DNA of 44,795 nucleotides, from positions 1-44,795 of IMG/VR virus record IMGVR_UViG_3300025154_000173. One strand, given 5' to 3'. This document shows, in pieces, positions 3,802 through 29,300 of this stretch. How positions within the stretch are numbered: the first letter of the stretch is position 1; every line of letters starts with the position of its first letter. The notes under the pieces are model-generated. The model saw only the letters and a program-made list of their open reading frames with translations, did no database searches and was not told the origin of the DNA. Origin of the DNA: a virus. The position numbers and the translations under genes were made by a program.

Positions 3802-4436
3802 TGGCAAACAAAGATCTCACGCATATTGCATTTATCATAGATCGCTCGGGCTCCATGAATGATGTAGTTGAGTCTACTGTAAAAGGTTTTAACGAATTTA
3901 TGATAGAACAGAGAGGTGCAGCTGGTGAAGCCTTAATGACTGTAGTCCTGTTCGATGATAGATACGAAATCCTACATGACATGGTGGATGTAAAACTTGT
4001 ACCTGATATTGATGCTTCTTTAAACTTAGCTAGAGGAACAACTGCATTACGAGATGCAATTGGACGAACTATCCTTAAAGTTAAGGAACAGATTCAGAAC
4101 TTAGATGAAGACGATAGACCTGCAAAGGTTTTGTTTATTATTACAACTGATGGACAAGACAATGCTAGTACCGACTTCGATACGGACAAGTTACAGGCAG
4201 CTCTTACTTTCCAACGTGATGTGGATAAATGGGAATTTTTATTCACAGGTGCAGACGAAGCATTAATAACTACCGCACAGTCCTATGGGATTGCCAGAGG
4301 TAATATTGCTTTTTACGATAATAGCACAAAAGGTGTTATGGATAATTACGGAACAATTAGCTGTGCTACAGCTATGTACCGCTCTGCAGTTTCTGGTCAA
4401 GACTCTTCAAATCTAATGGATGACGCAAAATCGTAA
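3801..4436 (+). CDS. von Willebrand factor A domain protein
   Basis: 211 residues, nearly all one VWA domain. The metal-ion-dependent adhesion site is visible: DRSGSM near residue 14, a threonine in GTTALRD near residue 75, and an aspartate in TTDGQD near residue 115. VWA proteins bind ligands through a divalent metal and often act as adaptors, for example beside AAA+ ATPases. A second VWA protein lies at 34.1 kb beside a MoxR ATPase; this copy has no such neighbour. It ends in TAA, followed by a terminator and the second tRNA cluster. Confidence 0.85.
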   Translation: MANKDLTHIAFIIDRSGSMNDVVESTVKGFNEFMIEQRGAAGEALMTVVLFDDRYEILHDMVDVKLVPDIDASLNLARGTTALRDAIGRTILKVKEQIQNLDEDDRPAKVLFIITTDGQDNASTDFDTDKLQAALTFQRDVDKWEFLFTGADEALITTAQSYGIARGNIAFYDNSTKGVMDNYGTISCATAMYRSAVSGQDSSNLMDDAKS

Positions 4437-4450
4437 GTATTTTCGGAAAT

Positions 4451-4480
4451 GGCAAGTTTTTGCTTGCCTTTTCTTTTTTA
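4451..4480 (+). terminator. Intrinsic terminator after VWA gene
   Basis: GGCAAG pairs with CTTGCC across a T-rich loop and is followed by TTTTCTTTTTT. Confidence 0.8.
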
Positions 4481-4504
4481 ATGTCGTATATTTGTATTAT
4501 ACAT

Positions 4505-4580
4505 TTAGGTGTCGCCTAGTTGGCCTATGGCACTCCGTTTGGGGCGGAGAATAACGTTAGTTCGAATCTAACCACCTGAA
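4505..4580 (+). tRNA. tRNA-Pro (anticodon TGG)
   Basis: Acceptor TTAGGTG/CACCTGA, D stem GCC/GGC, anticodon stem CTCCG/CGGAG with loop TTTGGGG, T stem GTTAG/CTAAC with loop TTCGAAT, discriminator A. Anticodon TGG reads proline CCN codons. Confidence 0.9.
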
Positions 4581-4588
4581 CAATACAT

Positions 4589-4675
4589 TGCGGGTTCCCA
4601 TTAGAGGCCTAGATGGCGGGGCTCATAACCCCAGGGATCACAAGTCCATCACGAGTTCGAATCTCGTACCCGCTA
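4589..4675 (+). tRNA. tRNA with CAT anticodon, initiator-like features and a long variable arm
   Basis: The anticodon loop CTCATAA sits on a GGGG/CCCC stem; consecutive G:C pairs here are an initiator-tRNA trait. Acceptor positions 2-7 pair (GCGGGT/ACCCGC) but 1 and 72 are T and T, an unpaired end as in initiators. The D stem is CCAT/ATGG, T stem ACGAG/CTCGT, discriminator A. The variable region (4633-4650) is about 18 bases and can form a GGA/TCC stem, which no known tRNA-Met has. Either an unusual initiator/elongator or a class II tRNA with a changed anticodon. Confidence 0.7.
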
Positions 4676-4687
4676 CAAAATTTCAAC

Positions 4688-4760
4688 GCACGATTAACTC
4701 AGCGGTCTAGAGTGGCGATCTCTAAAATCGTTGTCATCGGTTCGAATCCGATATTGTGCA
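4688..4760 (+). tRNA. Amber suppressor tRNA (anticodon CTA)
   Basis: All arms pair well: acceptor GCACGAT/ATTGTGC, D stem ACTC/GAGT, anticodon stem GCGAT/ATCGT, T stem ATCGG/CCGAT. The 7-base anticodon loop is CTCTAAA, which places C4722, T4723 and A4724 at 34-36, so the anticodon is CTA and reads UAG. Discriminator is A. The charged amino acid cannot be deduced. A gene with an in-frame TAG (Pth2-like) begins 436 bases downstream. Confidence 0.9.
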
Positions 4761-4873
4761 CAAACAAACACTAAATATGGAACAAACTATGAAATAGGTA
4801 TACACAAGGGGTCCTTAAATTTTTCTTTTTGAAATTTATTTATAACATAAACTAACAAAAAGGAGAAATTAAA

Positions 4874-5203
4874 ATGAACCCTAAAATGATCGAGTTAAAA
4901 GAACGCATTAAATTGAATGCGGAGTATAGAAAATACAACAGACTAGCAGGTCATAAAAATGCAAGTGACGAACATAAAGCAAAGTTCACAGAGTTAAGAG
5001 AACAATTATTTACAAAAAGTCAGTATGGTTATTGGAGTTCTAATGCTAATTACTTCAGTGCTACAAGATTATACCACATTGCTTATAGTATGCTAAAAGG
5101 TCGAACCTACGAACAAATTGAGAATAAGGTAAAGCCTGGCAATGAACTGACCTCTTATGATTGGAAAGACATAGATAAAATAAAGGACAGCGTAAATGAA
5201 TAA
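4874..5203 (+). CDS. Hypothetical protein upstream of Pth2
   Basis: 109 residues with no recognised domain; basic and helical at the N-terminus, with an aromatic-rich centre (YGYWSSNANYFS). A strong AAGGAG ribosome site precedes the ATG. Its last codons overlap the start of the Pth2-like gene (ATGAATAA), so the two are coupled. Function unknown. Confidence 0.65.
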   Translation: MNPKMIELKERIKLNAEYRKYNRLAGHKNASDEHKAKFTELREQLFTKSQYGYWSSNANYFSATRLYHIAYSMLKGRTYEQIENKVKPGNELTSYDWKDIDKIKDSVNE

Positions 5204-5495
5204 AATGTATGTAATAACACGGAAAGACCTGGGAGCCATTTATAAAATGGTACAGGGAGCGCATGCATTAGCACAATATTTATTAACACAGCATTAGTTA
5301 GGACAGCTGTGGGGTAATGAATATCTTATTTTTCTAGAAGTACAGGACAAAGAAGGACTGACTAAACTGGCTGAGAAATTATCAATACAAGATATCAAGT
5401 TCAGTTTATTTTATGAACCTGATATAGAAGAGGTAACCGCTTTAGCTTGTTATTGTGAAGAAAAGCAGTTCAAAAATTATAAGGTAGCTACATAA
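5196..5495 (+). CDS. Pth2-like peptidyl-tRNA hydrolase with an in-frame amber codon
   Basis: The frame from ATG 5196 to TAA 5493-5495 has 99 codons, the 34th being TAG (5295-5297). Sequence on both sides reads as one Pth2-like protein: VITRKDLGAIYKMVQGAHA before the TAG, with the family's lysine and histidine, and LFYEPDIEEVTALACY near the end, with the conserved aspartate and threonine. Pth2 enzymes release peptides from peptidyl-tRNA. The TAG lies at the boundary between the first helix and the next strand, in a loop region. With the CTA tRNA encoded just upstream, full-length product is expected by suppression; without it only a 33-residue fragment would form. The start overlaps the previous gene. 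Confidence 0.82.
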
Positions 5496-5508: not shown

Positions 5509-5536
5509 ATAATATACATCATACTCAGAATCTTTA

Positions 5537-6496
5537 ATGTCTCATAAATTAACTTTGGAAGAATTTATTAATAGAGCAAATATACTACATGAAGGTTTAT
5601 ATGATTACTCCAAAGCAATATATATAAATAATAGGACTAAAGTAGAAATTATATGTCCTACACATGGAGCATTTTATCAAACCCCAAACCATCATTTACA
5701 GGGGCACGCCTGTAAAGAGTGCGGTTGGCTAAAAATAGGAGCAAACTTTGTTAGTAACTTACGAGAATTCTTAAGGAAAGCAGAAAAAAGGCACGACAAC
5801 TTTTATGAGTATACAAAAAGTGTGTATGTGAATGACCATACCTCTCTTATTATTACGTGTCCCACACATGGGGACTTTAAGCAGACACCTAATATGCATC
5901 TGCAAGGGCATGGTTGTAGAAAATGTGGTTTTGAAAAAGTTGCACAGTCGACCAGATGGACTACAGAGGAGTTTACACAAAAGGCTATAAAACAACATGG
6001 AGACCTGTATGATTACTCTATGGTTAACTATGTTAATTCAATAACTAATATAATGATAATATGTAAGAAGCATGGACCATTTTCTCAACAACCGCATGCT
6101 CATACAATAGGGGTTGGTTGCCCAGTCTGTAGTTATAGCAAAGCTGAAAAAGAATTATTGAAATACTTCGTAGATAGCCATATAAACAATAAACAACAGT
6201 ATAGTTTTAAAAACTTAGTTGGCCTTAACGGCGGGAGTCTAAAGTTTGATTTTGCCCTGTGCGACAAAGAAGATAATATACTATTTTTATTAGAGTATCA
6301 AGGACAACAACACTATAGATTAACTGGCTGGATGATGAACCAAGAAGAATTTGAAACTTTACAAAAACATGATAAGTTAAAATATGAGTACTGTAAAAAT
6401 AATAACATTCCATTGGAATATATTTCCTATAAAGACAATGCTGTTGAAATGTTTAAATCAATTTATAAAAAATACGAGAGGTTAGAATGGCAATGA
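5537..6496 (+). CDS. Free-standing endonuclease with three zinc-repeat units
   Basis: 319 residues. Three repeats of about 57 residues begin near 5, 70 and 135; each has a YDYS-like segment, then C-P-x-H-G-x-F-x-Q-x-P, an H, and a C-x-x-C pair, as in DUF723-type DNA-binding units. The C-terminal 120 residues look like a PD-(D/E)xK/Vsr-type nuclease: FDFAL, then LLEYQGQQHY, then a D-K-L-K-Y-E-Y-C helix. Such proteins are typically mobile homing-type nucleases. A shorter relative is encoded at 21942-22661. It ends in TGA, overlapping the next gene. Confidence 0.75.
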   Translation: MSHKLTLEEFINRANILHEGLYDYSKAIYINNRTKVEIICPTHGAFYQTPNHHLQGHACKECGWLKIGANFVSNLREFLRKAEKRHDNFYEYTKSVYVNDHTSLIITCPTHGDFKQTPNMHLQGHGCRKCGFEKVAQSTRWTTEEFTQKAIKQHGDLYDYSMVNYVNSITNIMIICKKHGPFSQQPHAHTIGVGCPVCSYSKAEKELLKYFVDSHINNKQQYSFKNLVGLNGGSLKFDFALCDKEDNILFLLEYQGQQHYRLTGWMMNQEEFETLQKHDKLKYEYCKNNNIPLEYISYKDNAVEMFKSIYKKYERLEWQ

Positions 6497-7355: not shown

Positions 7356-7661
7356 TTGAAATATAAAAGTGATATTCTTAGTAACACTGGTAACTTCCGC
7401 ATCATGACGGAGTTGGAACTTATAGAAAAGCTTGGTAAACAATGGAACGCTAACATAGATGTTTCTGGGAACCATGATGGTGGCATGAATTATCTTTTCG
7501 GTCGCAACCTATCTACACTAAAAATACGAGATTCCCATCGTGGGTTTTCAGTCTGTAATGATAAGACTAGTGACTGGCAGTGGGAAATAAGCCTAGACGT
7601 GGTAGTTGAGGATACATTTAGTTTAATAGGTTACAAAAATTACTCTAGTATTTTATCGTGA
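7356..7661 (+). CDS. Paralogue family member 1 (FRxKTxxE...MDYLxGx...YxxYSxIL)
   Basis: 101 residues with a TTG start 6 bases after a GGAAC box. It shares with four neighbours an N-terminal F-R-x-x-T-E-x-E-x-x-x-x-x-G-x-x-W segment, a central M-N/D-Y-L-F/L-G segment, a W-x-I/L-S strand, and the terminal Y-K-N-Y-S-S-I-L. This is the most divergent of the five (MNYLFGRN). No function is known to me. It ends in TGA, overlapping the GTG of the phosphatase gene. Confidence 0.7.
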   Translation: MKYKSDILSNTGNFRIMTELELIEKLGKQWNANIDVSGNHDGGMNYLFGRNLSTLKIRDSHRGFSVCNDKTSDWQWEISLDVVVEDTFSLIGYKNYSSILS

Positions 7662-8077
7662 TACGAGCAACAAAAAATCAACTGGAGAACCTAAATAATT
7701 CCCATCAAGACCTCGAAAACTGTAAGAGAGTTCTATGTGTATGTAGTGCGGGCATGCTACGTTCTGCCTCAATGGCAATTGTATTTGCACAGAATTTTGG
7801 ATATAACACACGGTCAGCGGGAACTGAAGACTATGCCTTAATTCCTGTAACGGAAGCGCTAGTACGATGGGCAGATATTATTGTTTGTGCCGAACCCCTA
7901 CATAGACAACGAATATTATCAGACATATCGTATGACGAAGTTCTTGGAGAAGCTGTAGTATTTTTTGAGGAAACAGAACGTAAAATAATAGTACTAAACC
8001 TTCCAGACGATTTTGGTTACATGGATCAAACCTTAGTAAGACTAATATCTGAAAGATACAAAGCAACAATGAAATAA
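7658..8077 (+). CDS. Low-molecular-weight protein tyrosine phosphatase-like protein
   Basis: 139 residues. The P-loop signature C-x5-R-S is present as CSAGMLRS near residue 29, after a VLCV strand, and an aspartate-containing loop LPDDFGYMD near residue 113 could supply the general acid. The family dephosphorylates phosphotyrosine or arsenate-type substrates. The protein is short and the usual second aspartate-proline loop is altered, so substrate is uncertain. GTG start overlaps the previous stop. It ends in TAA just before a tRNA. Confidence 0.72.
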   Translation: MIRATKNQLENLNNSHQDLENCKRVLCVCSAGMLRSASMAIVFAQNFGYNTRSAGTEDYALIPVTEALVRWADIIVCAEPLHRQRILSDISYDEVLGEAVVFFEETERKIIVLNLPDDFGYMDQTLVRLISERYKATMK

Positions 8078-8082
8078 AATAT

Positions 8083-8163
8083 GCGTCGATGGCAGACAGG
8101 GATGCAGCAGTCTCCAAAACTGTGGTCGAAAGACTGATGAAGATTCGAATCCTTCTCGGCGCG
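8083..8163 (+). tRNA. tRNA-Trp (anticodon CCA) with a long variable arm
   Basis: Acceptor GCGTCGA/TCGGCGC, 3-bp D stem GCA/TGC, anticodon stem GCAGT/ACTGT with loop CTCCAAA, T arm GAAGA/CCTTC with one A-C clash, discriminator G as in tRNA-Trp. The variable region (8124-8138) is 15 bases and folds as GGTC-GAAA-GACT, a class II-type arm not found in ordinary tRNA-Trp. Confidence 0.8.
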
Positions 8164-8195
8164 CGGATAATTTAAAAACTAAAAAAGGAAATAGT

Positions 8196-8555
8196 ATGTC
8201 AAAGATAGCATACATTCTAGATAATAAAGAAAACTTTCGGTTTAAAACAGAGCAGGAATTTAAGGAAGACTACGGACCATCCTGGAGAAAGGCTCTTCCT
8301 GCTACTTGGCCCACTACTATGGATTATTTATTTAGCCAAGAACTTAATACGTTCCGTACGGACAACGCAGGAACGGAGTCTTTTTGGATAACTGATCATA
8401 TGCAGGGCGGGAATCGTTCTTGGAAAATAAATGTAGAGATGCTTCTCGAAAAGGGTGTATTTAGAACCGTAGACATTTCTTTACGCGGTGCTCCAGTTAT
8501 AGATACAACAAAGTTAACAGGTTATCGTGATTATTCATCAATATTAAAATTATGA
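8196..8555 (+). CDS. Paralogue family member 2
   Basis: 119 residues behind an AAAGGAAA ribosome site. Family blocks: FRFKTEQEFKEDYGPSW, then MDYLFSQELN, then WKINVEML, then GYRDYSSILKL. About 35 residues longer than member 3, with an insert between the central strand and the C-terminal block. It ends in TGA overlapping the next gene's ATG, so members 2 and 3 are coupled. Confidence 0.72.
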   Translation: MSKIAYILDNKENFRFKTEQEFKEDYGPSWRKALPATWPTTMDYLFSQELNTFRTDNAGTESFWITDHMQGGNRSWKINVEMLLEKGVFRTVDISLRGAPVIDTTKLTGYRDYSSILKL

Positions 8556-8815
8556 CTATAGAAGAAGTAAGAGCAAACCCAAACAAATTTAGATTTAAGA
8601 CAGAAGCTGAATTTATAACGGAGTTTGGCACAGACTGGAAAGACAGAGTACCATATAAGTGGAACTCAGATGGCGATATGGATTACCTGTTAGGAAAATC
8701 TTATTCCGAGGTATCTACAACAGGGTGGCTTATTAGTACTGATATGCTTATCCAAATAGGCACAAATCCCGAAGTATTAGCAGACTATAGAACCTATGGA
8801 AATATTTTACATTAA
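8552..8815 (+). CDS. Paralogue family member 3
   Basis: 87 residues. Blocks: FRFKTEAEFITEFGTDW, MDYLLGKS, WLISTDML and YRTYGNILH. This is the most compact version and so probably shows the minimal domain. Its TAA overlaps the ATG of the zinc-ribbon protein. Confidence 0.72.
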   Translation: MTIEEVRANPNKFRFKTEAEFITEFGTDWKDRVPYKWNSDGDMDYLLGKSYSEVSTTGWLISTDMLIQIGTNPEVLADYRTYGNILH

Positions 8816-9069
8816 TGAAAAAATTTAAACCCAGACCTGTAGGCTACCAAGAATATTGGACTGCCAAAGGCGAGTATGGTCTAGAACGGCTTCGCCGATA
8901 TAAAAAACGTCTAGACAAACGTAAACTAAAAGGTGGATGCCCTCGATGCCATCGTAACCCAAAAGAAGATCCTCATACGTGCCCATATGCTGAGGATATG
9001 CGGGGCGACCATGTAACTTTGTGCAGATGCTGTTATGACTGTAGGCATGAGTGTGCAATGGATATCTGA
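8815..9069 (+). CDS. Cysteine-rich zinc-ribbon protein
   Basis: 84 residues. Residues 1-40 are basic and helical; the rest has CPRCH, HTCPYAED and CRCCYDCRHEC, eight or more cysteines and histidines that could bind two zinc ions. Likely a nucleic-acid or protein adaptor, but no specific family is assigned. Start overlaps the previous stop; ends in TGA. Confidence 0.65.
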   Translation: MKKFKPRPVGYQEYWTAKGEYGLERLRRYKKRLDKRKLKGGCPRCHRNPKEDPHTCPYAEDMRGDHVTLCRCCYDCRHECAMDI

Positions 9070-9078
9070 TTTTAATTG

Positions 9079-9133
9079 TGGAGGTAGCTCAGTGGTAGAG
9101 CACTTAGTCGGAGAGTTCGATTCTTCCCCTCCA
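9079..9133 (+). pseudogene. tRNA remnant lacking the anticodon arm
   Basis: TGGAGG and CCTCCA form a 6-bp acceptor-like stem around a normal D arm (GCTC/GAGC) and a T-loop TTCGATT on a damaged stem. Between D and T arms only about 9 bases remain, so the anticodon stem-loop is missing. It looks like a tRNA gene after an internal deletion. Confidence 0.6.
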
Positions 9134-9146
9134 TACTTAATTTTTT

Positions 9147-9171
9147 TGGGTATAAGAATGATAGTAAATTT
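9147..9171 (+). promoter_or_regulatory. Phage-type promoter motif copy 1
   Basis: Contains TGGGTATAAGAATGATAG, closely matching the copy at 18426. It stands 26 bases before the paralogue 4 start codon. Confidence 0.6.
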
Positions 9172-9196
9172 TAGATTAATTATAAAGGAGTACATT

Positions 9197-9511
9197 ATGC
9201 TAGACTGCTCTGGTGGGCTAGATAAGGATCTCGTAAAACGTGGCCCGCTTCGTTTTAAAACAGCGGCGGAGTTCGAACAGGACTATGGGTCTACCTGGAG
9301 ACAGGACGTGCCAGGTCCATATTGTTGGGTATGTAGTATGGATAGCTTGCTGGGAAAACATTTAAGCGTATTTGGAGTTACAGATTTAGGAGATAGCTAT
9401 GGAGTAGCAGGTTGGAATATCTCTGAAAGCATGCTTACTCGCACCGAAATACACCCAGCACAGGTAGAGTCTTTGCCAAATTACAAAGATTACTCCACAA
9501 TTTTAAAATAA
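9197..9511 (+). CDS. Paralogue family member 4
   Basis: 104 residues from ATG 9197, chosen because AAGGAG lies 8 bases upstream; upstream in-frame starts would overlap the tRNA remnant. Blocks: LRFKTAAEFEQDYGSTWR, MDSLLGKHLS, WNISESML, YKDYSTILK. It is the first gene behind a phage-type promoter motif. It ends in TAA. Confidence 0.72.
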   Translation: MLDCSGGLDKDLVKRGPLRFKTAAEFEQDYGSTWRQDVPGPYCWVCSMDSLLGKHLSVFGVTDLGDSYGVAGWNISESMLTRTEIHPAQVESLPNYKDYSTILK

Positions 9512-9525
9512 ATGGAACAAGTAAT

Positions 9526-9813
9526 ATGATTAAATTTAAAGACATCTTAGAACATCCAGAACTATATAGATTCAAAACTCAAGAGGAACTAATAGCTGAG
9601 TATGGTGTTCACCACTGGCGCAGCTCCGTACTGGGCCAATGGATAGAGGATATGGATTACTTACTCGGTCAGCAAGTCTCGGAACATCTCATAAAAAGTA
9701 GTGGACCTAGCGATGTTCAGATAGACCGTACTTGGAACTCAGGAATAGAAGCATTTACACTAAACACATCATCTCTATTAAACTATAGAGATTATTCAAC
9801 AATCCTAAAATAA
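9526..9813 (+). CDS. Paralogue family member 5
   Basis: 95 residues. Blocks: YRFKTQEELIAEYGVHHWR, MDYLLGQQVS, FTLNTSSLL, YRDYSTILK. It follows member 4 by 14 bases and precedes a highly charged small protein, all probably on one transcript from the 9147 motif to the terminator at 10207. Confidence 0.72.
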   Translation: MIKFKDILEHPELYRFKTQEELIAEYGVHHWRSSVLGQWIEDMDYLLGQQVSEHLIKSSGPSDVQIDRTWNSGIEAFTLNTSSLLNYRDYSTILK

Positions 9814-18479: not shown

Positions 18480-19517
18480 ATGTTCAATTTAGGAATTAAA
18501 GTAGAAAATGGCTATGAAGGGGTAGTAAAGAATCTCTTCGTACAGCACAGTTTTTCACTGAAAGACATAAGCAAGCATGAAGTATTTCAGGCTGTTTTTG
18601 ATATCCTAGTTGGTGCCAAAAAAGCTAGGATTGGACCAAGACCTAATGCTTTCCACTCTGGAGCACTTATTGCTGTAATAACAAGTAGTATTGAGAATGG
18701 AGATCCTATACAACTGTTAGTACCATGGGGAAGTAAGAAACCTGTTCCTGGTACTGAGCTAGACCTTGCAGAAGTTTTTGCTATACAGGGATTAATAGAA
18801 CTCAATGAACAAGTTAAAGCTGTGTATCCTCCAGGAGTCCATTTTACGTTCAGAGTAGAAGACTACTCTGGGTACATAGCGTTTAAAAGACTAGTGCAGG
18901 TTGAGACAGATACTACGTTGTATACGGCCTCATTGCGTAAGTTGATACAACTTATGGAAGCACCTATAACTACAAACCTTGAATCAGAAGCGGCTGAAAG
19001 TATTTTGTACAGCTTTGACAACATATTTGAGGTAGTAAAGCCTATTATGAAAAGCGTACTAGATGGTATAACTCCCATAGACCGTTTGTATGAACACGGC
19101 TGGAAAGGAAATATTCCAACGGAACAACGGGAGTATTACATAAATGCTTACCGAAGGTTATACCCCGACGCTGATGCAGATGAATACAATGATCTGTTAG
19201 CTGATTATTTAACTATGGCTTTGGCGCGAGCAAGATCTGGGCTAACCCTTGCACCAAAGACGAATCATATAAAACTGTCTTTTGTGCAACCGATACCAGG
19301 AGCAGATTGGGTAACAGCTTTATATCGTAGAACTGTTGCAGATACAATGTGTCGTACGCATATTCCAGCCTGGAGAGCCTATGCAAGCATTCATATTAAC
19401 AAAGGGGACACTGAGTTAAAACTTCGAAACTGTAGGGAAGAAGGACAAGAAGCTGAGCTAACATTGACTGGAAAAGAGCAGCAGTTAGTTTTACATACAG
19501 TAGTAGTAGACGAGTAG
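18480..19517 (+). CDS. Unrecognised 345-residue protein
   Basis: It stands alone between a phage-type promoter motif and a terminator. A central block (LLVPWGSKKPVPGTELDLAE, then YPPGVHFTFRVEDYSG) faintly recalls the PvcA/Dit1 isocyanide synthase layout, where a K-x-P-x-K region and a Y-P-P-G strand occur, but this is too weak to assign. Residues 200-345 contain many charged helices. It ends in TAG immediately before the terminator. Function unknown. Confidence 0.7.
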   Translation: MFNLGIKVENGYEGVVKNLFVQHSFSLKDISKHEVFQAVFDILVGAKKARIGPRPNAFHSGALIAVITSSIENGDPIQLLVPWGSKKPVPGTELDLAEVFAIQGLIELNEQVKAVYPPGVHFTFRVEDYSGYIAFKRLVQVETDTTLYTASLRKLIQLMEAPITTNLESEAAESILYSFDNIFEVVKPIMKSVLDGITPIDRLYEHGWKGNIPTEQREYYINAYRRLYPDADADEYNDLLADYLTMALARARSGLTLAPKTNHIKLSFVQPIPGADWVTALYRRTVADTMCRTHIPAWRAYASIHINKGDTELKLRNCREEGQEAELTLTGKEQQLVLHTVVVDE

Positions 19518-21955: not shown

Positions 21956-22661
21956 GGGCTGCCTCCAACTTTGTGCAGATATTTTCATCAAAACGAATAC
22001 GAACTAATTTTATATTATTTACTTCACAGTAATTGTTTTTTAAAACATCATAACTTTGCAATTCTTTAAACTTTGACATGGTCATCATGTGCGGGACGTG
22101 CCAGAAATGCTGACCTCCATCAAACTCTATTAAACAAGAAAGTCTGTGATTATTAAATATAGCAAAATCAAATCGTAACGGGTTACCCTTGTGGCTACAC
22201 AGGTCAGCAAAACTGTATTCAACTCTGTATTGCACGCCAAGTTCGTTTAGTAGGTTACTTATGATCATTTCTCCTTTTGAATGCTTACATTCTGGACAAC
22301 CTCTTCCACGTAAGTGGTTATTGGGGGACACTAAGAACTCTCCGTGAGCACGACAAGTTACAACAAGTTTTTTATGAGAACTACGATAAACAGTTTTAGA
22401 GTAGTCGTATGTATTATCATGTACAAGCTTTGATCGCAATATAAACTCTTTGGTGAGTAATGGAGCATTCTTTGAGCACTTACCGCAACCTCTACCGTTT
22501 AAATGCGAGTTTGGATTTTGTAAAAATTCTCCATGTTCGCTACAGACTATTTTTACCTTTTGTATAGCTGTTTTATAAATAGTTTTAGTATAGTCATATT
22601 TAAAATTGTGCACTAAATTAGCTTTAGCAATAAATTCCACGGTTGTTGAATTTTTACTCAT
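21942..22661 (-). CDS. Endonuclease with two zinc-repeat units
   Basis: 239 residues from ATG 22661 (MSKNSTTVEF), chosen because it overlaps the ligase stop in the usual ATGAGTAA way. Two DUF723-like repeats (C-S-E-H-G-E-F-L-Q-N-P-N-S-H-L, then C-x-x-C; second with CRAHGEFLVSPNNHLRG) precede a nuclease-like domain with RFDFAIFNNHR and CLIEFDGGQHF. It is a shorter relative of the 5537-6496 nuclease and is likely a mobile gene inserted in the operon. Confidence 0.75.
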   Translation of the reverse strand: MSKNSTTVEFIAKANLVHNFKYDYTKTIYKTAIQKVKIVCSEHGEFLQNPNSHLNGRGCGKCSKNAPLLTKEFILRSKLVHDNTYDYSKTVYRSSHKKLVVTCRAHGEFLVSPNNHLRGRGCPECKHSKGEMIISNLLNELGVQYRVEYSFADLCSHKGNPLRFDFAIFNNHRLSCLIEFDGGQHFWHVPHMMTMSKFKELQSYDVLKNNYCEVNNIKLVRIRFDENICTKLEAALGKV

Positions 22662-23970
22662 TTGTACTTCCTTTATCAAGGTGCCATGTTATAAACGAAG
22701 GCGACCGTAGCTTTCCGCTAGGATGTTGCTCCATAGCACTAATTTTTGCCACTCTGCCTACATACTCATCAGGATTTTTTAGCATATCTTGCAACTCTAG
22801 ATGGGTAAATCCCGTTCCTACTTTCGTAGTAACCCCAGTGGCCGCGTCATAGGCAATAATTCCTCCAGCTCTGGGGATTCCTTTTTTAATAGTGGCAGGA
22901 AAAACACTTTGAACAGCATAATCATACTCGGGTTTGTATTTTAATTTGTATGGGAGACCATTTTTCCATATAACTTTACCTTCTTTAAATTTTATTTTTT
23001 TCTGGAGCTCAAGAGGATCATCAAGATAGTTAAGCTGTTTGGTAAGTCCACGTATTAAGTCATATTTAGCTTTTGGGGTCAGGTTGGTTGTGTCTTTACC
23101 ATTATATTTAACAACATCTGTAACTGCCAATCTTAAGGGAGTACCTGCACTTCTTTGCATGTCACGACTTTTCCAAACATTCGCATTAAGCATGCCACCT
23201 AATAAACGATTAGGTACCTCGTTGCCCTGTCTGTCTACTGCGTAAACTTCAGTACGTAAAACGGTATTCCCTAAGGATTTCGGAACACGTCCACCTATAA
23301 TATCGTATAATTTAGCCGTATACTCAATAGGTAACCCTGTTTTTTTACTTAGTCGTGAAGATAAAACTATGGGGGTTTTGTTGGGTCGGAGTATAGTAGT
23401 TGCGTAGGCACCATCTATCTTAGGGGTTATGAAGTCTTGTTCCTGCGGAACATAAGCCTGATCTAACTCTTTCATTTTATATTTAGATGTGCTAGCAAAA
23501 TATTTACCAAGTTCACCAGAGGATGTATGATTAAGTAAAAGCCATTGATCTCCACCTGTTCTTATTAAACTAAATTTTTCAGTGTTGCCACCTTTGTACT
23601 TGTAAAAGGTTATTTTGTCAGGACTGGATTTTATGATTTCCACCTGGTCACGATCTGCTATACCAACATGCCCTTTACCATATCCAGATTCAATGCTTCC
23701 CTTAAAATCCATATATTTAACTGTGTGTGTAGGTTGTTGTACAGCTAAAACTTTCTCACCAGATTTTGGCCAACTACGTACTACAAAACTATGGGCAAAC
23801 CCTGTTGTAGGATCTCCAAGTCTCAAATCGAAATGCTGCCCAGCTCGCTCAGCGTCGTGCGAATGGAGTACAAATTCCCATTTCTGGGGGTTTGTAAAGT
23901 TAGGTAAACTAGCTTTTACACCTCTGTCTGGGATGCCAGGGGCAAACTCGGAATCTAAAAACTTACCCAT
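22654..23970 (-). CDS. LigD-type 3'-phosphoesterase plus ATP-dependent DNA ligase
   Basis: 438 residues from ATG 23970 (MGKFLDSEFAPG). Residues 25-150 are a LigD-type phosphoesterase domain: HSHDAERAGQHFDLRL with the catalytic histidines. Residues 170-370 are a nucleotidyltransferase: motif I TPKIDGAYA (lysine nucleophile), SSRLSKKTG, RTEVYAVD, and EGKVIWK with a motif V KLKYKPE. The rest looks like an OB fold ending R-S-P-S-F. Such fusions repair double-strand breaks with Ku in bacteria; here no Ku is seen. The start overlaps the stop of the cytidylyltransferase gene. Confidence 0.82.
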   Translation of the reverse strand: MGKFLDSEFAPGIPDRGVKASLPNFTNPQKWEFVLHSHDAERAGQHFDLRLGDPTTGFAHSFVVRSWPKSGEKVLAVQQPTHTVKYMDFKGSIESGYGKGHVGIADRDQVEIIKSSPDKITFYKYKGGNTEKFSLIRTGGDQWLLLNHTSSGELGKYFASTSKYKMKELDQAYVPQEQDFITPKIDGAYATTILRPNKTPIVLSSRLSKKTGLPIEYTAKLYDIIGGRVPKSLGNTVLRTEVYAVDRQGNEVPNRLLGGMLNANVWKSRDMQRSAGTPLRLAVTDVVKYNGKDTTNLTPKAKYDLIRGLTKQLNYLDDPLELQKKIKFKEGKVIWKNGLPYKLKYKPEYDYAVQSVFPATIKKGIPRAGGIIAYDAATGVTTKVGTGFTHLELQDMLKNPDEYVGRVAKISAMEQHPSGKLRSPSFITWHLDKGSTNE

Positions 23971-24349
23971 TGTCTGCAATCTCTAATGTTGTAGTTGATA
24001 TACCAGGAGTTCTTTTTATAAAAATTGTACTCGGATAGTCAAAGGGTCTCATATTCTTTTGGTCGTCTCCTTTAAACCAAACGTCAACCATTTGTAAATA
24101 CTGACTCATATCAAGCGTGTCTAGAATAATAATTTTATCTGATAATCCTGAGTTACGCAGATTTACTAAACGATAAGATAACGGATCAATAGGACGGTTC
24201 TTGCCTTTTTGAACAGTAACCCAATAATCAGTCATAATTCCAACATGTAAATAGTCGCAATGTTTTCTGCATTCTTTTAACATATTGATATGCCCCTCAT
24301 GAAACAAATCCCACACACCTACTGTGAAACCTAATTTAGTTTTATCCAT
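23963..24349 (-). CDS. Cytidylyltransferase (TagD/glycerol-3-phosphate type)
   Basis: 128 residues from ATG 24349. GVWDLFHEGHINML is the HxGH signature of nucleotidyltransferases, and PGISTTTLEI near the C-terminus matches the E-G-I-S-T-T segment of TagD-type enzymes. They make CDP-glycerol or similar CDP-alcohols. Beside LicD-like and glycosyltransferase genes, this suggests building a phosphodiester-linked surface modification. Starts 2 bases after the previous stop. Confidence 0.82.
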   Translation of the reverse strand: MDKTKLGFTVGVWDLFHEGHINMLKECRKHCDYLHVGIMTDYWVTVQKGKNRPIDPLSYRLVNLRNSGLSDKIIILDTLDMSQYLQMVDVWFKGDDQKNMRPFDYPSTIFIKRTPGISTTTLEIADNG

Positions 24350-26362: not shown

Positions 26363-29300
26363 TAATAAAACTCCCCTTTCTCGAAATCTGTGTTTCTTCC
26401 AAAGTTCTCGCCGTACAAATACGCAGGCACTGGATCTTTGCCTTTAATATTTGCATATTGTCCTTTCGAAGCACCGATGGTTAAACCTGCTTTAACACGA
26501 TTAGTGGTTATACGAGTCATCCAGTCATCTGAATCAGTGTTTAAGGTGTCTATTGATTTAAAGTAAGGTTTATAGGTTATTAACTCTAGCCCATCTTTTT
26601 TACGTTTTCTATTTACATTATCAATGTAGGATATGCTAACCTTATCGCCCCGATAGGCACCTGAGTCGTCAGGGGCGGTTGTTATTTCTGCATTATCAGA
26701 TATTCCACGTAAAACAGTTTCAAAAGTTTTATCGTAAAACTGACCTTCGTAAACTTTACCTAACTCTTTTACTATATGTTGTTGAGCTGCTAAGTGTGTA
26801 GTAAGTTCTCCAAGTTCTTGTGGTTTTACAACACCGTCTGATAATGGATCGCCCTGTTTAACTCTCTGACCTATCGTAACAACTGGTGTACGTCCTGGTG
26901 CAATTACATAGTTTTTTGTGTTAACTTTAACAAAGTACCCACCAGTTACATTCTTTGTAATCTCTCCAACTAGTCCGTCTTCTTCTGCAAGTGTTGCTTT
27001 TCCGCCTAACTTTTCTGGAACTTTAAGTAACTGCTCTATTCTAGGAAAACCTGCAGCGATTCCACCTCCACCTAAAGCACTTCCGCCTGAGTGAAAAGTT
27101 TTCATGGTTAACTGGGTAGAGCGTTCTGTAACAGCCTGTGCTTCACTTACACCAACATTTTCCCCTACAGGTGCAAGTTGTCCGTTTGGAAGAAGTCCGT
27201 AACACATTTGACAAACGCCTTCAACTGAATGACATGTCAGCGGAGAACGTACTTTGAGGGTAACCAGTCCTTTTTGTTTAGCTTTTTGGATAACTATGTT
27301 GTCGACAATGTCATTACGTTTTCCTATACCTGCTATACTGTGTAGCAAAGCACGATCCATAACATTCTTATCATTTATTTCAAACTCTAAACCTTCGTCA
27401 GTTCCGCAATCTATCTCGATTACTAGTAAGCGTCTATTTACATTTAACAGAGATTTATTTAGTGCACCTGACTCTTGTGTATTTACCGCACGATCCACAG
27501 TACCTTTACGTACTGCATACAGTGAGTTCCAGTAAGAAGCTGTGTCGAGTCCTTCGCCGTAAGATTTTAGTACTGGTATTTCTAACGGTGCCCCGTTAAT
27601 ATCTGTAAGAACACCAGGCATAGAAAGAATTTGTCTAATGGAATCTTTTTTACTGAATGATCCAGACGCGGCCATTTTACCTAAATTGTTTTCACTTTTT
27701 TCAAGAAGTACGTTTTGAGCATCTTGTACCTTGAGTGTTAATGTGTTTAGGGCCTCAATTCTCTTATCACCTTTTAGTTTATTTATGGCTGGAAGTTCTG
27801 CCTTTAACAGTCTGTCTCTGTATCCTTTATCTCCGATGAAATCCGTGATAGAAATTGTATGACCTTTAAGGTAAGAATAAGTAGCTCCCAAATTTTTCCA
27901 TGTGTTGATTACATTAGGAAAGTGCTGAGGCTGGTCTTTGCCAATTTCAGTTAATAGTTTTTCTGCAGTTTTAGAAGTTAAAACTCTTGTGTAATCTCTA
28001 TATTTATCTGGAAGATCAGAATTAATCATATACTGACCAATGGTCATAGGTTTTCCATTAAGCTTAAACTCTTCTGTCCATTTGAGTCCAGACTGTTTTG
28101 CCTCATCTATAGATTTAAAACTCTTACCAGACTTACTAGTAGTTTTGCTAAGTTCCCACAAACCAAAAATATAATCTTTAGTTAAGTCAGGCATTAACTG
28201 ATTATCGCCGTGCTTGAATAATATTTTACTTGGCATCATGTTTTTAGCTTCTTCTACAGCTTCACGACTAATAGGCACCATCATACTCATTGTATCACCA
28301 TCAAAGTCAGCATTAAACCCTTTAATAATAAGTGGGTTTAGCCGTATAGACTTACCCTTCATCAACACTGGATTAAATGCTTGTACAGAATGTTTATGCA
28401 AACTTGGCGCCCTGTTTAGTATAATAGGACGAGTTTTTATAACTTCACTAAGTGCATTTTTGGCGATTGGACTTTCTTCATCGTAATATTTCTTTGCATC
28501 AGTTACTTTTATACCAGACTGTTTCATCTCTCTCATTATAAACGGTTTATACATAGTATATGCCATGTCAATAGGTACGCCTACTTGGTCTAACCCTAAA
28601 TCGGGTTCTACTGTAATTGTAGAACGTCCAGAAAGATCTTGTGGTTTAGTCCAAAGAACTCCCTGTATCAAACCTGATTTCATTTGTCCAAGTTCTTTAA
28701 TAAAACCTTTATACTTGTCTTTTGAAAAAGTCATTGGGTCGGTGAAACCTTGTAAAGCTTTAACAGAGTTATATAAAGCAACTTGGCTTTCAACTTTGTC
28801 TTTATCGCTTAACTCGGAGTACATACTCTTAAGACTCTGATTTATCAAACCTACGTCACGATAATGTTTGTTAATATCACTAACCATTAAATCACCAGAC
28901 GGCAATGGATATATAGTTCTGAACTGTGGTGGAACAACTGGTACTTTTGACATAGTATAAGCATCTGCTGCTTTCATGTCTAAGTCTTTAAGTGCAAGCA
29001 TGTATTTTAATTTCGTGTTTAATTTATTTACATTAGTAGGAGGAGCTGTTTTTAACTCTGCCTTTAAAGTTTTTATTTGCGCGTTTACGTCAATGTTGTT
29101 AAGACCTGCTATAAGTGCAATTACTCCTGTTTTAGAATTTAATTCTTTTTTACCGTGCAGTACATTTTCAAAATCTGCTTCTGTTAGATTTAGGGCTTTC
29201 ATAATTGCGTCTTCATACATTGGATTAGGAATACGTTCTACTAGATCTAAGTGTGACCAGTTAGTTCCTTTTACTCCACCTGTAATAACAGGATCAAACA

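Follow-up and report, generated by a model that had tools for sequence, protein, structure and literature searches.

A Pth2-like gene with an in-frame amber codon linked to suppressor tRNAs: a candidate gating module in phages

Our analysis suggests that phages carry a conserved module in which a suppressor tRNA gates a small Pth2-like factor, whose output in turn reports amber suppression, and we consider this the likely reading of the comparisons below. It is exemplified by a 44,795-base linear IMG/VR record, IMGVR_UViG_3300025154_000173, which we call the window (Table 1).

Table 1. Features of the tRNA and Pth2-like locus in the window.
Feature	Position	Strand	Basis
Amber suppressor tRNA gene, anticodon CTA	4688..4761	+	ARAGORN and cloverleaf read from sequence
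Putative leader mini-ORF, ATG GAA CAA ACT ATG AAA TAG GTA TAC ACA AGG GGT CCT TAA	4777..4818	+	Three-sequence comparison
109-aa ORF overlapping the Pth2 start, no assigned function	4874..5203	+	Kept in the two nearest relatives
Pth2-like gene, 99 codons, single in-frame TAG	5196..5495	+	Reading frame, profile, model and structure matches
In-frame TAG, codon 34	5295..5297	+	Sequence and model position
Terminator-like hairpin (AAGGTAGC / GCTACCTT, then a T run), overlapping the stop codon	5481..5508	+	Read from sequence alone

The well-paired CTA tRNA described in the initial annotation was recovered by ARAGORN at the same place and folds into a full cloverleaf, with stems of 7 bp (acceptor), 4 bp (D), 5 bp (anticodon) and 5 bp (T) and the anticodon loop CTCTAAA; it could be aligned with CTA tRNAs from 11 other phages. 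ARAGORN labels it tRNA-Pyl, which mirrors the anticodon only. The PylT shape combines a 6-bp anticodon stem with a tiny D loop, and neither is seen in the window tRNA, where the sequence gives a normal D arm and an anticodon stem of five pairs. The spacing of 436 bases given earlier between tRNA and gene needs a small correction, since on recounting there are 434 bases from the tRNA end to the ATG. Directly after the Pth2-like gene, and still within the tRNA cluster, lies an HNH/homing endonuclease-like gene (5537-6496).

The Pth2-like frame reads MNKMYVITRKDLGAIYKMVQGAHALAQYLLTQH-TAG-LGQLWGNEYLIFLEV and onwards, and stays open after the TAG until a TAA, so that the amber does stand in frame at codon 34, as had been claimed. 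The further claim that the two halves form one Pth2-like protein also held: the 99-residue read-through protein matches PTH2 (PF01981) with E 3.7e-4 and 21.1 bits, just below the curated cut-off of 23, and its AlphaFold model has a pLDDT of 96.5 and finds its best structural matches, all of them Pth2, in 2zv3, 1q7s and 1xty (TM 0.74-0.82). At E<=0.001 there are 14 PDB matches, and each is a chain already known to have the Pth2 fold (TM 0.72-0.82). Among 56 relatives 28 match PTH2 at E<=0.01, and the family profile finds archaeal Pth2 2zv3 with E 2.6e-7. In the model the TAG falls at the junction between a helix spanning residues 14-31 and a second spanning 33-39, at the start of the latter, and therefore the unsuppressed product of 33 residues is predicted to lack most of the Pth2 fold.

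We speak of a Pth2-like protein rather than of a Pth2 enzyme because the phage family does not conserve the Gly-Lys segment that canonically precedes the Gln..His motif (GKGKMVAQ against psyqavQ in the alignment to 2zv3), which makes hydrolase activity uncertain. Some records carry a second, canonical PTH2 gene beside the small one (G010 22585-22974, - strand; G015 27688-28089, + strand; LR756511.1 219212-219580, - strand), a hint that the small form does something different. In some loci the Pth2-like domain is fused to a conserved domain with an RHFPNHA motif (L142 about 3953-4900, L019:7515-8300, L141:3461-4300), which precedes it in XacN1 and RAS14 and follows it in pT24. A TGA stands at a conserved Trp of Pth2 in L039 (about 6106), where TGA is perhaps read as Trp by the phage.

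How widespread is the pairing of gene and tRNA? Alignment-based scans together with an annotated phage collection yielded 135 loci in 89 clusters at 75% identity; these loci share descent, and the A3, A6 and A7 queries were derived from earlier matches. ARAGORN found stop-anticodon tRNAs (62 CTA, 4 TTA, 2 TCA) in the flank of 64 clusters, and after a covariance model was added one was present in the fetched flank of 70 of the 89, and within 1 kb in 58, many of these tRNAs sitting within 50 bases 3' of pth2. The model, built from CTA tRNAs, recovers odd ones that have a long D loop or reduced D arm and the loop CTCTAAA. CTA tRNAs of this kind missed by ARAGORN lie at L210:17528-17609 (L123 record), L173:16153-16226 (- strand, L132 record) and L117:5687-5753, and the model found further odd ones in L120, L126, L127 and L139. 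In 57 of 77 loci the tRNA closest to Pth2 reads a stop codon, as against 68 stop readers among all 665 tRNAs (10%), an enrichment for which p would be 6e-40 if the loci were independent; they are not, and p is only indicative.

In seven loci (L057, L085, L147, L017, L018, L121 and L076) TCA or TTA tRNAs replace CTA next to the Pth2-like gene, and in L076 the codon-34 site holds TAA. Isolated phages are included: in Tenacibaculum phage pT24 the Pth2 gene starts ATG AAA TAG and a tRNA-Sup lies 2.5 kb upstream, and the mycobacteriophages I3 and Myrna (M. smegmatis) show the pairing of tRNA and Pth2 without a sure in-frame TAG. In L010 and I3 tmRNA genes lie close to the module, which fits a theme of peptidyl-tRNA clearing and proves nothing. 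Contig scans with the patterns used found no relative in cellular genomes.

In-frame ambers occur in about 35 of the 89 clusters, or about two fifths, and fall into two classes. In 24 clusters the TAG stands at codon 2-9, mostly at codons 3-5, with no ATG, GTG or TTG after it (ATG AAG TAG ATT and ATG AAT AAC TAG are examples); in 12 it stands further in, mostly at codons 32-34, which form the loop after helix 1, and two clusters show both classes. Translation of the N-terminal class may alternatively begin at an unconventional start downstream of the TAG; in L020, L021 and L109 a Shine-Dalgarno-like GGAG suits the ATG before the TAG and not the codon after it. The TAG label changes at least 11 times on the tree, with 6 changes forced by supported branches, for a tree built from few columns, and a tree comparison of TAG against tRNA presence offers few differing pairs. 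A purine after an amber is a context that favours its suppression, and a purine follows the in-frame TAG in 34 of 36 cases, against 72 of 143 for terminal TAGs (p 3e-7). Two loci differ in arrangement, with Pth2 lying in frame behind an ORF of ~150 codons via a TAG and no start after it (L044:5530-6273; L058 about 5520-6270), so Pth2 is possibly the read-through tail of the upstream ORF there. As judged from these sequences, gating is not universal, since the majority of clusters do without an in-frame TAG though most of these still have the tRNA. In loci without an in-frame TAG, TAG serves as the upstream in-frame stop in 19 of 55 cases against a background of 162 of 753, a mild excess only.

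Could the TAG instead act as a constant damper, which lets basal near-cognate read-through make only little of the Pth2-like protein while the linked tRNA serves another purpose? LR745206.1 would suit such a picture, since it has a TAG at codon 4 and no stop-anticodon tRNA was found in it when all 634,780 bp were searched with ARAGORN, the covariance model and a descriptor (in other records this descriptor failed to pick up two CTA tRNAs that the covariance model recovered). However, a damper does not predict that the nearest tRNA should so often be a stop reader, and 29 of the 36 TAG-bearing clusters do have a suppressor nearby, with none in the fetched flank of seven, so that we think this explanation unlikely. 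The same record qualifies the proposal of the initial annotation that the phage must supply its own suppressor for full-length Pth2 to be made. Comparative support for that dependence is strong, as it comes from the same-site TAG in a relative, from repeated ambers in one gene across distant phages, from the linkage to stop-anticodon tRNAs, from the purine context and from the lack of general recoding, but LR745206.1 has its early TAG without a detectable suppressor.

A second possibility is that the short frames act as minigenes, in which ATG followed by one to three codons and TAG causes drop-off of peptidyl-tRNA that Pth then clears, so that Pth activity rather than suppression would be sensed. 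The frames would then behave like the bar minigenes of lambda, and both the clustering of N-terminal TAGs at codons 3-5 and the ATG AAA TAG within the window leader are in keeping with the idea. Since it leaves the codon-34 class and the tRNA linkage unexplained, we give it only a slim chance.

We regard it as very unlikely that TAG is a mere sense codon of phages recoded to genetic code 15. Recoded phages usually carry a CTA tRNA (PMC13037316), and many in-frame TAGs are indeed present in Lak phages and, within our set, in L057 and L085. However, across eight records of about 1.93 Mb in total, among them the window and the complete pT24 and LR745206.1, code 15 does not raise coding density in any, and TAG ends 1.9-11.7% of ORFs of at least 100 codons. 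Greedy calling gave 59 ORFs of 60 codons or more in the window itself, and 7 of them end in TAG, which agrees with the earlier count of at least seven genes. Counting in-frame against terminal TAGs, as had been proposed, over the eight records gave the same picture, with TAG an ordinary terminator and supported in-frame cases practically confined to Pth2. Homology supports an in-frame TAG in 8 of 842 non-overlapping homologous ORFs (~226,000 aligned codons), only 10 of the testable ORFs being in the window; six of the eight are Pth2, and in the other two an ATG coincides with or adjoins the codon that follows the TAG. An overlap filter had taken out 127 non-Pth2 matches of the raw scan, mostly shadow frames, and the TAG of pT24, too close to the start for the homology test, was seen directly in the sequence. 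Pth2 thus appears as the only convincing gene with an in-frame TAG among the 842, and genome-wide recoding was rejected for the eight records.

The nearest relatives of the window bear on the remaining alternative. With the read-through protein as query we obtained a 140-kb contig, L002 (IMGVR_UViG_3300036715_001290), whose protein is 65% identical and likewise has TAG as codon 34, although the codons around it differ (CAG CAT TAG TTA against AAT ACG TAG CTT); a CTA tRNA lies 0.9 kb upstream, and the overlapping upstream ORF is the same. In L005 (177 kb) tRNA-CTA, upstream ORF and Pth2 follow in the order of the window, and the TAG position holds AAA (Lys). One base change could create a TAG, and L005 has a sense codon there, yet a sequencing error or a mutation in a decaying, non-functional pth2 has next to no chance of being right and was rejected, because the independent L002 shares the codon-34 TAG with a conserved protein and an intact frame after it, and TAGs turn up again in or near the loop after helix 1 in several further lineages.

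All three leaders have a TAG, exactly four codons and GGT CCN TAA in frame with an ATG; in the window the TAG is at 4795-4797 and the read-through peptide ends Gly-Pro-stop. This motif, which was defined from the same three sequences on which the leader mini-ORF hypothesis rests, has 3 occurrences among 3.86 Mb when eight records are read on both strands, and two of those records contain these copies. By its sequence, the leader amber of L005 would be the sole amber there. More broadly, TAG-ended mini-ORFs upstream of TAG-less Pth2 genes are not enriched (14 of 69 against 114 of 436).

How would a module of a suppressor tRNA and a Pth2-like factor work? We propose that a stop-anticodon tRNA, usually CUA, is linked to the small factor, whose ambers would stand, depending on lineage, at codon 2-9, at codon ~32-34, at a gene junction or possibly in a leader mini-ORF. 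Without suppression the ribosome would halt at the amber and give a fragment only; with the suppressor expressed and charged, full-length protein would be made. Since full-length protein would appear only under suppression, the gene would report how much amber suppression takes place in an infected cell. Read-through of stops would also carry ribosomes past gene ends and leave peptidyl-tRNA and stalled complexes, so that a clearing factor would be needed just then, and the Pth2-like protein probably clears such peptidyl-tRNA and stalled products. Negative feedback on the suppressor would be equally allowed. The linkage, the conservation and recurrence of the ambers, their restriction to Pth2 and the use of TAG as a stop elsewhere are read from the sequences, and from these we infer that read-through by the linked tRNA would make the protein conditional on suppression.

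A broader version could as well prove wrong as right. In it, the amber suppressor tRNA of standard-code phages would be retained chiefly alongside the Pth2-like factor as a natural suppression rheostat, in which ambers in the mRNA, at lineage-specific spots, sense suppression; these spots would be a leader mini-ORF, codon 3-5, codon ~34 or the read-through tail of an upstream gene. If this is true, the circuit would be a natural one in which a suppressor tRNA serves a specific gene, and it would account for many phage suppressor tRNAs to which no target has been assigned.

Phage suppressor tRNAs and the Pth2 of jumbo phages are already known, each separately. Recoded phages (code 15; crAss-like, Lak, jumbo) likewise combine a phage-encoded CUA tRNA with in-frame TAG, but they read TAG in many genes, whereas here one gene is concerned and TAG is still a stop elsewhere. 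Suppressor tRNAs without genome-wide recoding also occur in XacN1, whose authors found no target (PMC5852040), and in the Zeta crAss-like phages, for which it was asked why phages keep 'non-functioning' suppressor tRNAs (PMC12386605). XacN1 also has a Pth, its own Pth2 being without an in-frame TAG; what differs from both papers is that a recurrent target is named here. The PTH2-type hydrolase of jumbo phages has been proposed for ribosome rescue in a paper that mentions neither a suppressor tRNA link nor an in-frame TAG (PMC7824862).

In its logic the module would be comparable to the programmed frameshift of prfB (RF2), as outlined in PMC12421855, where a stop codon lying in frame close to the beginning of a translation-factor gene senses how it is decoded; both would be self-sensing stop codons in translation-factor genes, with a dedicated suppressor tRNA in place of a frameshift and a Pth2-like protein here. 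Control of expression by an amber codon and a suppressor tRNA has been engineered as a feed-forward gate, synthetic as outlined in PMC7969014, of which the phage module would be a natural counterpart. In the literature searched, with Borges et al. 2022 outside its scope, we found no paper joining phage suppressor tRNAs to Pth2.

The Pth2-like gene is a recurrent and testable candidate target for the suppressor tRNAs of standard-code phages, and since it occurs in phages of culturable hosts, with the amber in Tenacibaculum phage pT24 and as the pairing lacking a sure in-frame TAG in I3 and Myrna, the question can be tested directly. Annotation calls for some care, as gene callers lose the start of the gene (the RefSeq Pth2 gene of pT24 begins late, at L142:4082, so that its N terminus is missed) and ARAGORN overlooks some suppressor tRNAs.

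Elsewhere in the window, five related small ORFs in a row (7356-9813) share the motif FRFKT..EF..EYG and form a tandem paralogue family. The gene at 18480-19517 is weakly similar to DIT1/PvcA of pyoverdine/dityrosine biosynthesis, which is odd for a phage, and on the - strand at 22654-23979 a LigD-type 3'-phosphoesterase domain and an ATP-dependent ligase-like C terminus are combined in one protein.
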